DNA from: Bacillota bacterium
GTDB taxonomy: Bacteria > Bacillota > Negativicutes > Sporomusales > Sporomusaceae
NCBI GenBank assembly: GCA_017889675.1
Contig: JAGGAA010000003.1
Coordinates: 1 to 36,002, forward strand
Length of the DNA stretch: 36,002 bases
Reading direction: 5' to 3'
A model generated the notes under the pieces. The model saw only the letters and a program-made list of their open reading frames with translations, was not told the origin of the DNA and searched no databases. Positions 2,970-19,634 of this stretch are shown here, in pieces; the stretch's first letter is position 1, and every line of letters starts with the position of its first letter. Both the position numbers and the translations under genes were made by a program.

Positions 2970-3079
2970 AATGAAATAGCCGATTATTTCTATACTAAAA
3001 TCAGTAATAACTGTTCAGACTAAGTCTATGTGGCACAATTGCTGACTTTTATCCGAAAATGAAGGAGGTATTTACTTTT

Positions 3080-15873: not shown

Positions 15874-16512
15874 TTAGCAAATAAAATGTGCTGCCATTTT
15901 CATAAATACCGGCGAAATATATACTTCTATTAGTGCCGCGCCCAACATAAGCACCAGCATAGCTAAACAAAATATCGAGTAGGCAATGGAGTTGTAAAAT
16001 AGATTATCTTTGTTATTATGCTTACGCCGCACTAACATTAAGGAGAAAGTTGTTGCTGCCACTCCTGTTGCTAAAATAGCGGGTACCGCCAAAAAATTGT
16101 GCGGCAAAACTGCAGCAATAGCAAATAACAGCCCTTTCATTACATATTCATGGACTAAAAAACCAACAGTAAACCCAATGATAAAGCCTCGTAAGCATAC
16201 CATAAACAGGACAAACGGTATACCCACAATAGTAAAGCCAAGCAGCCACATAATACCAATAATTCTAATATTATTACCCATCACACTCGCTAGCAGAGTA
16301 TGGGTATTACTGATTCCGTCTGGTTGTTCAGTCAGGCCTTGAAAAAACACTCGTAAATAGCCGACAAGCTCTATCTTTTGTTCTTCAGGTAGTGTTTTTA
16401 CAGCCATAGCTCCAATAACTATTCCGATAACAAAAATAAGAATCATAAAAAAATAAGCCACAATATTCGCACGAATATAATCGGCGGCATTCCGGCGAAG
16501 AAGTTTCAGCAT
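15874..16512 (-). CDS. spoIIM: Stage II sporulation protein M
   Basis: SpoIIM is part of the SpoIID-SpoIIM-SpoIIP complex in the mother-cell membrane that remodels septal peptidoglycan and drives engulfment. The product is a polytopic membrane protein with about five hydrophobic segments, including the conserved FVLFMVCLRGFIIGFTVGFL and GLLFAIAAVLPHNFLAVPA (the PHN motif). A GGGAGG site precedes the ATG by 7 bases. Its length of 212 residues is typical. It follows endoQ by about 90 bases, in the Bacillus-like order nudF-...-spoIIM-...-xerD. Confidence 0.95.
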   Translation of the reverse strand: MLKLLRRNAADYIRANIVAYFFMILIFVIGIVIGAMAVKTLPEEQKIELVGYLRVFFQGLTEQPDGISNTHTLLASVMGNNIRIIGIMWLLGFTIVGIPFVLFMVCLRGFIIGFTVGFLVHEYVMKGLLFAIAAVLPHNFLAVPAILATGVAATTFSLMLVRRKHNNKDNLFYNSIAYSIFCLAMLVLMLGAALIEVYISPVFMKMAAHFIC

Positions 16513-16566: not shown

Positions 16567-16605
16567 AGACCTATTTGTCCATTATAGTTATCCGGAAATA
16601 GGCCT
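16567..16605. repeat. 10-bp inverted repeat between endoQ and spoIIM
   Basis: AGACCTATTT (16567-16576) and AAATAGGCCT (16596-16605) can pair over 10 bp with one G-T pair, starting at the endoQ stop. No T-run follows on the minus strand (AAACAG), so this is not a clear terminator; it may be a weak one or an operator. Confidence 0.4.
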
Positions 16606-17789
16606 CACTGCAGCATCCGTCCATAAATTCCGCCGCCGCCAGCACTAATCGCAGCAGTTCCATTACGTGCCGTCATAATAAAGTGAGCAATTTTATTACC
16701 AGCGATGTTGGACAAAGCCTCATATGTCGCAAAATGCAAAATATTCATTTCGGTTTCAAATGCTGTCAGCAGTTTAGCCATGCATTTTTTACCTAGTCCA
16801 GGGATAAATTCTAGCGGTATTTGATAACTATACTGGGGCCGGAAGGCAGGATGATGAGGTTCAGCGTAATCGGCTATTTGATTAATACGCTCAAATACCC
16901 CTGCAGTCAAAGTACTGCTGCTGCATTGTGGGCAGTACTTATCAGTCAGACCCTCGGCAGCAGTAAAACCGCACTGGCGACAGAAAGTACGGTGATACTT
17001 TCCTAACCGGGGATCAAGTCCATAGTTGGCGATAACCTGACGCCCGTCTGTACGGGACAAGGCTTTACTTAATTCGAGAAATGACAATGTTTCCATAGAA
17101 AATACATTGTATTCACGAGCAATTTTGTCAAGTGAGTGAGCATCGGAATTGGTTATAAATGTGTAACCAGCTAACTCACTGATTCTGTCTGCTAAGTTGC
17201 TGTCCGCACTTAAGCCAAGTTCAATTGCTGCTAGTTTAACCATATCCTGATCAGATAGAATATGTGATAATCTTTGACAACATACGCCATAAAGGCTTTT
17301 ATGGGGGGTAAAAACATGAGCGGGAATGATAAGTGAATTAAAACTGCTGGCAATTTGAATAAGCTGTGTTAGGGGCATATGGGCATTTTGTGAGCTAAGA
17401 TTAATATTACGGATAAATTGGCTCATATAGGTAGAGAAAGTAGTCATTGTTTTAATATCAGGCATAAATATCAATGTATGTGCCAAACCGCCGTTGACTT
17501 CCCTGGTTTCAATCTCCGCACCAAGTATAAGCAACGTATTATTCTGGTAAAGATATCCACCACTACTAACCGGCACAAGAATTTCTTCTTCGATAAGCGC
17601 TTTTAAATCTGCAAGAACTAATGGCGACAAGGCATCTATGATGCCGATGATATTCATACCCTTGCGCTCAGCGGCCTCCGCTAAGATGCTACGAACGGTC
17701 AACCGACGTGACGTAGGAATTTTTACCCATTTACCGCTGTGACTCATGCCTACATGAATGTGCAGGTCAGTAAAATACTGATTTAGCAT
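16605..17789 (-). CDS. Endonuclease Q-like PHP-domain protein
   Basis: The product combines a PHP metallo-phosphoesterase domain (FTDLHIH at residues 6-12, GAEIETR, PAHVFTPHKS, NSDAHS), a four-cysteine zinc finger (CRQCGF ... KYCPQC), and a C-terminal helix-hairpin-helix-like part (IPGLGKKCMAKLL) ending GGGGIYGRM. This layout is that of EndoQ (TIGR00375 family), which nicks DNA 5' to deaminated bases and abasic sites in archaea and some Bacillota. The ATG at 17789 matches the usual start (MLNQYFTDLHIH). A longer form from 17810 would overlap nudF by 19 bases. It is likely co-transcribed with nudF. Confidence 0.88.
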   Translation of the reverse strand: MLNQYFTDLHIHVGMSHSGKWVKIPTSRRLTVRSILAEAAERKGMNIIGIIDALSPLVLADLKALIEEEILVPVSSGGYLYQNNTLLILGAEIETREVNGGLAHTLIFMPDIKTMTTFSTYMSQFIRNINLSSQNAHMPLTQLIQIASSFNSLIIPAHVFTPHKSLYGVCCQRLSHILSDQDMVKLAAIELGLSADSNLADRISELAGYTFITNSDAHSLDKIAREYNVFSMETLSFLELSKALSRTDGRQVIANYGLDPRLGKYHRTFCRQCGFTAAEGLTDKYCPQCSSSTLTAGVFERINQIADYAEPHHPAFRPQYSYQIPLEFIPGLGKKCMAKLLTAFETEMNILHFATYEALSNIAGNKIAHFIMTARNGTAAISAGGGGIYGRMLQ

Positions 17790-17791
17790 AC

Positions 17792-18328
17792 TTATATTCC
17801 CGCCAAACATAGCGCCACTAAACTCTTGGCATCACATAACTCACCACTAATAATCATTTGGTGAATTTGTTCGGGAGTATAAATTTCGGTATTAATAAAC
17901 TCATCTTCATCAGGATGCTTATCTGATTCAATAAGATCTTCTGCCAGATATACATGAATAATCTCATTGGAAAATCCAGGGGTAGTATACATAGATGTCA
18001 ACTTGCGCAGCGTATTCGCCGTAAAGCCAGTTTCCTCTGCCAATTCACGCACTGCACAGGCTGCGGGATCTTCACCGGAATCAAGTTTGCCAGCAGGTAC
18101 TTCGAGTATAACCTGGCCAATCGGATGACGGAATTGCCGCACGAGGATAACATTGCCTTCCGTTGTTAGCGGCACAATAGCAACTGCCCCCGGGTGTTCT
18201 ACCACTTCCCTCATCCCAGTTCGTCCATTAGGGAGAATTACCTCATCACGCCGCAGGTTAATAATTTTACCTTCAAATAAACGTTCCGAATTTGTTAGTT
18301 TTTCATAAAGATCTGTATCGTTTGGCAT
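17792..18328 (-). CDS. nudF: ADP-ribose pyrophosphatase (Nudix hydrolase)
   Basis: The 178-residue protein hydrolyses ADP-ribose to AMP and ribose-5-phosphate. The Nudix box GX5EX7REUXEEXGU is complete at residues 80-102 (Gly80, Glu86, Arg94, Glu95, Glu98, Glu99, Gly101). The N-terminal NLRRDEVILPNG and the segment VRQFRHP are typical of the NudF/YqkG subgroup. A strong AGGAGG precedes the ATG. It is divergent from the MciZ-like gene and overlaps or abuts endoQ. Confidence 0.94.
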   Translation of the reverse strand: MPNDTDLYEKLTNSERLFEGKIINLRRDEVILPNGRTGMREVVEHPGAVAIVPLTTEGNVILVRQFRHPIGQVILEVPAGKLDSGEDPAACAVRELAEETGFTANTLRKLTSMYTTPGFSNEIIHVYLAEDLIESDKHPDEDEFINTEIYTPEQIHQMIISGELCDAKSLVALCLAGI

Positions 18329-18349
18329 ATGACCCTCCTATTATTTAAA

Positions 18350-18380
18350 CATATATTACCAAAACGCTTCATATATTACC
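18350..18380. repeat. Direct repeat CATATATTACC in the nudF / MciZ-like divergent region
   Basis: CATATATTACC occurs at 18350-18360 and 18370-18380, 20 bases apart (about two helical turns). On the plus strand ACATATA, 14 bases, CATATATT also resembles a sigma-E promoter (KMATATT-N14-CATACAMT), so the repeat may be promoter boxes or an operator. Confidence 0.5.
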
Positions 18381-18392
18381 TCCATAAGGAGG
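18379..18392 (+). promoter_or_regulatory. Hairpin covering the ribosome site of the MciZ-like gene
   Basis: CCTCC (18379-18383), loop ATAA, GGAGG (18388-18392): the Shine-Dalgarno sequence is the 3' arm of a perfect 5-bp GC-rich stem. It could hide the site if the transcript starts upstream of 18379; a start near 18383 would free it. Confidence 0.45.
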
Positions 18393-18401
18393 AATGTCTG
18401 C

Positions 18402-18527
18402 GTGAAATTGATTGCTAAACATGGCTTTTATTTTAGTGGTAGAATCAAGGATTTACTTAAAGAATTACATACCATGAGTAAAAAGTATAAAACTTTGCGC
18501 GAACTGCTTAATAATAATCGACAGTAG
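18402..18527 (+). CDS. MciZ-like small protein (41 aa), candidate FtsZ inhibitor
   Basis: This short gene starts at GTG 18402 after AAGGAGG (18386-18392, 9-base spacing) and encodes 41 residues: a hydrophobic start (HGFYFSGR), then one long basic helix (IKDLLKELHTMSKKYKTLRE). Aligned by eye without gaps to Bacillus MciZ from the shared Gly, it keeps the pattern G-[KR], E/D, I/L, Leu, F/Y, V/L, K/R, D/E and I/L. MciZ is the mother-cell peptide that caps FtsZ filaments during sporulation, and in Bacillus subtilis its gene is next to nudF, as here. The match rests on remembered sequence and position, so it is a candidate. No terminator is seen before the convergent buk. Confidence 0.6.
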   Translation: MKLIAKHGFYFSGRIKDLLKELHTMSKKYKTLRELLNNNRQ

Positions 18528-18563
18528 CAAGTAGAAGTATGTCTATCATTGCCCTGCCCTCTT

Positions 18564-19634
18564 CTATTCATATACCTTAGGCTGCTCTTCACCACGTAAT
18601 ACCCGTAAGGCGCCTTCAACTAAAGCCTGCAGTTCATCTTCCCCAGGATGCACAATAACCGGACCGATAAATTTCACGCGGTCGGTAATCATTTTCACAA
18701 GTCTTTGTGAATAAGCCAACCCGCCGGTAAGAACAATAGCGTCCAATTGTCCATATACGACAGTAGCCATTGCACCAATCTCTTTTGCAACTTGATAAGC
18801 CATTGCCTCATAAATGAGAGCAGCGCTAGTATCACCACTCGCAATGCGGCTTTCCACTTCTCGTCCATCACTTGTACCCAGATGAGCCATTAAACCCGCA
18901 TTACCAATAAGCTTCTTCTTGATTTCATCAAGGGTATATTTACCAGAATAGCATAAGTTAATTAAACCATAAGACGGTACAGCACCAGCACGTTCTGGAG
19001 AAAATGGACCTAGGTCATTCGGATTGGTTACATCAATCATTTTGCCATTTTGCTGCACTCCAACTGAAATACCACCACCAAGATGGATGAGAATTAGGGT
19101 AAGAGTATTGTATTCTTTATTTAAATCGTTGGCAACTCTATGGGCAACAGCTTTTAAATTGAGGGCATGAAACAAGCTGCGACGAGGCACTTCTGGTAAA
19201 CCGGAAATTCTGGCTAATGGTTCGAGCTCATCTACGCTTACCGGATCTACAATAAAAGCCGGAATATTAACTTGGTTGGCGATCCCCCTTGCCAAAATAC
19301 CCCCTAGATTGGAGGCATGTTCAGTTTGCACTTCTCTTTTTAAATCGCAGATCATACTATCATTTACTGCATATGTGCCACTACCTAGCGGTTTCAATGG
19401 CCCGCCCCGCCCAACAACAGCTGCTAAACTGCTAATGTTGATATGGTGGTCTGAAAGTGCTTTTCTCACTAACTGCAGACGATAATCATACTGGTCGTAA
19501 ATTTTTGCGAAAGGCGTAAGTTCGTTAATACTATGACGGATAACTTGTTCAAAATCAATTACATCATTAGTATATACAGCTATTTTGGTTGAAGTTGAAC
19601 CAGGATTAATTGCAAGAATTTTATACTGCTGCAT
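18564..19634 (-). CDS. buk: Butyrate kinase
   Basis: Butyrate kinase makes ATP and butyrate from butyryl phosphate, the last step of one butyrate route; branched-chain acids are also used by some relatives. The acetokinase-family motifs are present: ILAINPGSTSTKIAVY at the N-terminus, VVGRGGPLKPL, LIHLGGGISVGV, and the later VLTGGLAYS. The ATG at 19632-19634 follows CGGAGG; a longer frame adds 6 residues without a site. The 356-residue length is standard. No phosphotransbutyrylase gene lies in the window. It stands alone between the spo0A terminator and the MciZ-like gene, with a sigma-H type promoter. Confidence 0.95.
   Translation of the reverse strand: MQQYKILAINPGSTSTKIAVYTNDVIDFEQVIRHSINELTPFAKIYDQYDYRLQLVRKALSDHHINISSLAAVVGRGGPLKPLGSGTYAVNDSMICDLKREVQTEHASNLGGILARGIANQVNIPAFIVDPVSVDELEPLARISGLPEVPRRSLFHALNLKAVAHRVANDLNKEYNTLTLILIHLGGGISVGVQQNGKMIDVTNPNDLGPFSPERAGAVPSYGLINLCYSGKYTLDEIKKKLIGNAGLMAHLGTSDGREVESRIASGDTSAALIYEAMAYQVAKEIGAMATVVYGQLDAIVLTGGLAYSQRLVKMITDRVKFIGPVIVHPGEDELQALVEGALRVLRGEEQPKVYE

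Follow-up and report, generated by a model that had tools for sequence, protein, structure and literature searches.

In Bacillus subtilis, MciZ is produced under sigmaE control, caps FtsZ filaments, and helps to block a second polar septum, as described previously (PMC5045927, PMC6126333, PMC4929429, PMC8192124). A review places MciZ beta2 on FtsZ beta9 and the MciZ helix H1 on H10, and calls the salt bridge between MciZ Arg20 and FtsZ Asp280 essential (PMC10089256). Searches of an open-access library turned up no title or abstract on MciZ homologues outside the Bacilli. Here, we analyzed a small gene within a 36,002-nucleotide stretch of Bacillota DNA (the window), for which an earlier note, made from the sequence alone, had proposed an MciZ-like product. 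The window peptide shares several traits with B. subtilis MciZ (PF13072; PDB 2MRW, and 4U39 with FtsZ): its length (41 versus 40 residues), an invariant Gly followed by a helix with a Leu nine residues later, a gene divergent from nudF-yqxK, and an occurrence tied to sporulation; the GTG start is found also in B. spizizenii. It departs from B. subtilis MciZ in sequence (∼10% identity in the profile alignment, with GFYFSGR in place of GVVLVGK), in a Leu at the position of Arg20, in a score below the Pfam cut-off, and in a different promoter sequence. Other Bacilli MciZ proteins (PF13072, e.g., L095 to L100) likewise have nudF as neighbor, and their C-terminal TLQEYL is nearer to the TLRELL of the window peptide than is the B. 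subtilis end, whereas their GKAWEIR/K core (Arg/Lys at 20), basic tail, and lack of a spoIVA-like promoter match set them apart from the window. Our main reading, to which we assign a probability of about 0.8, is that the gene encodes a divergent MciZ orthologue that would be made in the mother cell and cap FtsZ. The features of the locus are as follows.

15874 to 16512, minus strand: spoIIM, a sporulation gene of the same gene run (PF01944, E 1.6e-31)
16605 to 17810, minus strand: yqxK-type gene, the second conserved neighbor (TIGR00375, E 7e-79 though below its cut-off)
17792 to 18328, minus strand: nudF-type Nudix hydrolase gene, the conserved divergent neighbor (PF00293, E 2.6e-21)
18349 to 18355, plus strand: predicted -35 element ACATATA, weaker than that of several relatives, with a 14-base spacing to the -10 element
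18370 to 18377, plus strand: predicted -10 element CATATATT of a sigmaE-type promoter, found with a spoIVA-trained matrix
18379 to 18392, plus strand: palindrome CCTCC-ATAA-GGAGG, between the -10 element and the start codon, conserved in the genus
18386 to 18393, plus strand: ribosome binding site AAGGAGGA; relatives also have a GGAGG-type site
18402 to 18527, plus strand: mciZ-like gene, 41 codons, GTG start, TAG stop

The stretch from 18402 to 18527 is a conserved protein-coding gene. Its frame of 126 bases encodes the 41-residue product VKLIAKHGFYFSGRIKDLLKELHTMSKKYKTLRELLNNNRQ and overlaps an antisense frame of 63 residues at 18428-18619(-). The plus-strand gene of 41 codons with a good ribosome site, as the earlier note had described it, was confirmed as a GTG-started ORF preceded by AAGGAGGA. 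Failure of the frame to persist among close relatives had been named there as grounds for abandoning the idea, and the frame proved to be conserved: a search of 60 genomes found the ORF in every one of the nine genus members, the window's own genome among them, and in all three other members of the family. Among the nine genus members, pN/pS was 0.31 in the mciZ-like frame versus 1.05 and 2.18 in the other two frames. When the alignment columns were shuffled 200 times, the ratio averaged 0.79 and did not drop under 0.44. In the window peptide, the invariant Gly is Gly13 and the near-invariant Leu is Leu22. An AlphaFold2 model of the peptide alone, computed from a 6-row alignment, consisted of a single helix spanning residues 3 to 39 (mean pLDDT of 77) and was uninformative; since MciZ has been described in complex with FtsZ, this model says little on an anatomy of strand, Gly hinge, and helix.

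Single-sequence scans of the window peptide yielded no Pfam or NCBIfam match and nothing useful among solved structures. A PDB search with a profile of 17 relatives failed to retrieve MciZ, and its best matches were rejected as helical stretches of unrelated proteins. When the Pfam MciZ model (PF13072) was run over the 60 genomes, none reached the gathering cut-off of 22.2 bits; the best match was the same ORF in G010 (21.2 bits, E 4e-4), this ORF was also met under the cut-off in G044, G057, and G004, and the window's own copy was not among the matches. Most of the remaining matches covered only a short part of a long frame (positions 12-33 of the profile; frames of ∼455 residues). The one such case examined, a long frame in L027 that we presume to resemble a nitrogenase-family protein, was taken as a chance match. 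Scanned one by one against Pfam, six of 17 class members matched MciZ (best E, 7.5e-5), while any other family matched at most one. The same held for the members of a broader profile (A5), made up of class members plus 23 of the 27 context-bearing matches from the phylum: MciZ matched 29 of the 54 at E <=1, the next family matched 2, and no NCBIfam model matched more than one. Alignment of 26 class members (A3) with 24 Bacilli MciZ sequences (A4) in hhalign extended end to end over 42 columns, with a Prob of 96.1 and an E value of 3.1e-9. The profile-profile score was 40.5, compared with a maximum of 18.5 in 200 shuffles of the Bacilli columns and 10.9 for the reversed profile. At the level of sequence profiles, this establishes full-length homology of the predicted peptide to Bacilli MciZ. 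The profile-profile match, the sub-cut-off Pfam MciZ matches in relatives, and the identical divergent place next to nudF together make it near certain that the ORF is a divergent mciZ orthologue, so that the identity put forward in the earlier note is supported by a search with a Bacilli MciZ alignment.

The neighborhood points in the same direction. In the window, the mciZ-like gene and nudF are 73 bases apart and transcribed in opposite directions; the opposite flank carries an acetate-kinase-family gene, spo0A, and a SpoIVB-type gene. The order matches that in Bacillus spizizenii (L064), where mciZ starts at 3001(+) and is followed on the other strand by nudF (2918-2412) and then a yqxK-type gene; the claim that nudF is the neighbor here as in Bacillus was thus right. 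A divergent nudF adjoined mciZ in five of five Bacillus loci named by the MciZ search and in all 30 Bacilli loci read (i.e., 29 of the best matches above the Pfam cut-off plus L064; 56 of 250 Bacilli genomes were above that cut-off). In the window's class, a divergent nudF was close by in all 27 genomes with the mciZ-like gene, although one of them, G009, retains only its first 42 residues. At this locus (L012, 1637-1822 and 1899-2537), nudF is a 61-codon remnant, yqxK is missing, spoIIM comes next, and the mciZ-like gene is intact. Some relatives carry a 220-residue gene between mciZ and the kinase gene (e.g., L008, 1633-2295, minus strand), with an ATP-binding-like start, GEFGSGKT; it has no NCBIfam match and is absent from the corresponding spot in the window.

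A class-level profile search recovered the gene in 27 of 299 genomes at E <1e-4. The A5 profile returned the same 27 at E <=1.4e-8, and the next match, at 1.2e-3, was weaker by about five orders of magnitude. Occurrence was strongly associated with spoIVA, which is present in 48 of the 299 genomes: the gene was found in 25 of these 48 versus 2 of the 251 spoIVA-negative genomes (Fisher p 5e-21). Only G055 and G061 thus carry the gene without spoIVA, and 23 spoIVA-positive genomes are without the gene, which makes it dispensable. A hidden, diverged copy in the latter was rejected, as no MciZ-like frame with a ribosome site was seen in the 21 in which nudF was found; frames upstream of nudF were judged by eye, and two gene-carrying genomes checked alongside did show an MciZ-like frame. 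Two spoIVA-positive genomes have mciZ-like frames with altered or cut C-termini, due to frame-shift or decay (L055 in G023 and L057 in G018).

We extended the search to a sample of 199 genomes from the phylum, unlabelled by class. The profile of 26 class members matched 35 of them at E <=1e-3, the window included; among the 34 other matches, 23 were divergent to nudF, 4 to yqxK, and 7 to neither. With A5, 62 of the 199 matched at E <=0.01, a threshold at which ∼2 are expected by chance. The 29 further matches outside the profile comprised 16 divergent to nudF, 4 divergent to yqxK, and 9 without context, the last group including weak second matches in L215 and L216, one of them with stops. Matches again followed spoIVA (61 of 173 positive versus 1 of 26 negative genomes; p 5e-4), the exception being G627. 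Apart from this genome, G055, and G061, the mciZ-like gene is confined to spore-formers. Across the phylum, the peptides keep their length, the invariant Gly, and the helix Leu. Altogether, 16 of the 63 phylum matches lie beside neither nudF nor yqxK, and MciZ-like frames of this kind (L170, L171, L175-L177, L182, L186, L190, L193, L196, L199, L200, L202, and L214) are either moved copies or chance matches. The expectation that MciZ would reach one other spore-former lineage was borne out but understated its extent. The presence of the gene beside nudF in many other spore-formers suggests that this brake is older and more widespread than the Bacillus record.

The region upstream of the gene was compared with that of the classic sigmaE gene spoIVA. 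In 18 of 20 stretches from class genomes, spoIVA is preceded by TAATATT-N13-CATATATT or a closely similar site, and a matrix was built from 15 distinct spoIVA sites and set against a background of 17016 random 90-mers. Of 28 class mciZ upstream regions, 19 scored above the 99th percentile and 8 above the 99.9th. The site in the window itself scores only moderately (16.1, shuffle p ∼0.02) and, being only joint third best in the 36 kb, is weak on its own. CATA(T/C) occupies the expected -10 place in 24 of the 28 class members, compared with 3.7% of the background, and CATA stands there in 23 of 47 upstream regions of the wider phylum set, compared with 7.8%. The matrix placed none of 30 Bacilli mciZ upstream regions above the 99th percentile. 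By these scores, the mciZ-like gene has a predicted sigmaE-type promoter resembling the spoIVA promoter of these genomes, and such a promoter fits a role in the mother cell. The full arms of the palindrome occur in 10 of the 28 class members, and the element was not seen upstream of spoIVA. We discarded the idea of an RNA hairpin around the ribosome site because transcription probably starts at or after the CCTCC arm and only those 10 members have the palindrome in full. In two further loci (L110 and L111, from G031 and G067), a CATATATTAC element like the mciZ promoter stands upstream of nudF with no MciZ-like frame after it, possibly a relic of a lost mciZ-like gene.

These data bear on readings in which the frame would not act as a peptide at all. 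That the frame is open merely by chance in intergenic DNA would be in keeping with its shortness and with the overlapping antisense frame, but the conserved frame, the codon-level selection, and the gap that separates the 27 true matches from the next one contradict this explanation, to which we give hardly any credence. Alternatively, the ORF could encode a leader peptide or be a cis-regulatory element for the nudF promoter region. This would account for its position, divergent to nudF and no more than 400 bases away in almost all genomes with context, as well as for the overlap of palindrome and ribosome site in some class members. Transcription, however, runs away from nudF, selection acts at the protein level, and 8 phylum copies have yqxK as their neighbor, no nudF having been found in the space between. 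Furthermore, in G009 the small gene, its ribosome site, and its -10 element are whole next to a decayed nudF and in the absence of yqxK, which argues that the mciZ-like gene is kept for itself. A leader or cis-regulatory role is therefore very improbable.

A weightier alternative concerns what the peptide binds. Although an MciZ orthologue by origin, it could have changed in target or strength, with no capping through Arg20-Asp280 outside the Bacilli, and act weakly or on another division partner in the mother cell. We asked 80 genomes for the two contact residues; 77 had FtsZ, and 76 pairs could be read. FtsZ has D or E at the 280 position in 72 of the 76 pairs, while MciZ has R or K at the Arg20 position in 17 of 18 Bacilli pairs, 10 of 25 pairs from the window's class, and 11 of 33 other phylum pairs. 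The window follows this pattern, since its genome has ftsZ with Asp at 280 and the small peptide has Leu19 opposite. The failure of Arg20 to be conserved outside the Bacilli while the FtsZ acidic residue is, together with the strong divergence from Bacilli MciZ, favors a changed target or strength. The acidic residue, however, may persist for polymerisation alone, and the Gly, the helix Leu, and the length have been kept phylum-wide. A Bacilli member above the Pfam cut-off (G528) also has Leu at 20, so Arg20 is not family-defining. On balance, we regard a change of target or strength as unlikely, though deserving of serious attention. The counts identify the Arg20-Asp280 bridge as a Bacilli-centered feature, and its absence from the window means that any capping must rest on other contacts. 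The absence of Arg20 lowers the claim of B. subtilis-like binding and leaves the claim of orthology intact; having failed both at the Pfam cut-off and at this contact, the ORF is best placed as an orthologous variant that the family model, as it stands, does not cover.

For the preferred reading, a divergent MciZ orthologue that caps FtsZ, a mechanism can be outlined by analogy with B. subtilis. sigmaE would switch the gene on in the mother cell once the polar septum has formed, and the peptide would dock on the C-terminal polymerisation face of FtsZ, adding a strand to the FtsZ beta sheet and laying its helix against H10. Lacking Arg20-Asp280, the interface would depend on different contacts, probably those made by the strand that precedes Gly13 and by the hydrophobic helix face of Ile15, Leu18, and Leu22. 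Capping of the filaments would then keep a second polar septum from being built. That the 41-residue peptide caps FtsZ is probable. SulA and MinC are larger, unrelated FtsZ inhibitors that are not known to be sporulation-specific. The face of FtsZ proposed here for the window peptide is also theirs (PMC11938149).

On a larger scale, we lean toward the view that MciZ is ancestral to the endospore program: a nudF-linked, sigmaE-driven FtsZ cap that would predate the split of the window's class, the Bacilli, and the other sampled lineages, that was lost many times among spore-formers, whose contact with FtsZ was rewired, and most copies of which escape both the Pfam cut-off and NCBIfam. In practical terms, a gene of some 40 codons can be traced across a phylum by profile and neighbor where curated family models miss it. 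The face of FtsZ that MciZ binds is also a target of antibiotic research, and the natural variants, above all those without Arg20, offer a ready set for finding what MciZ needs to cap FtsZ. If the reading is true, the block of a second septum by FtsZ capping would be old and general in sporulation rather than a refinement peculiar to Bacillus, and could be tested in many organisms.
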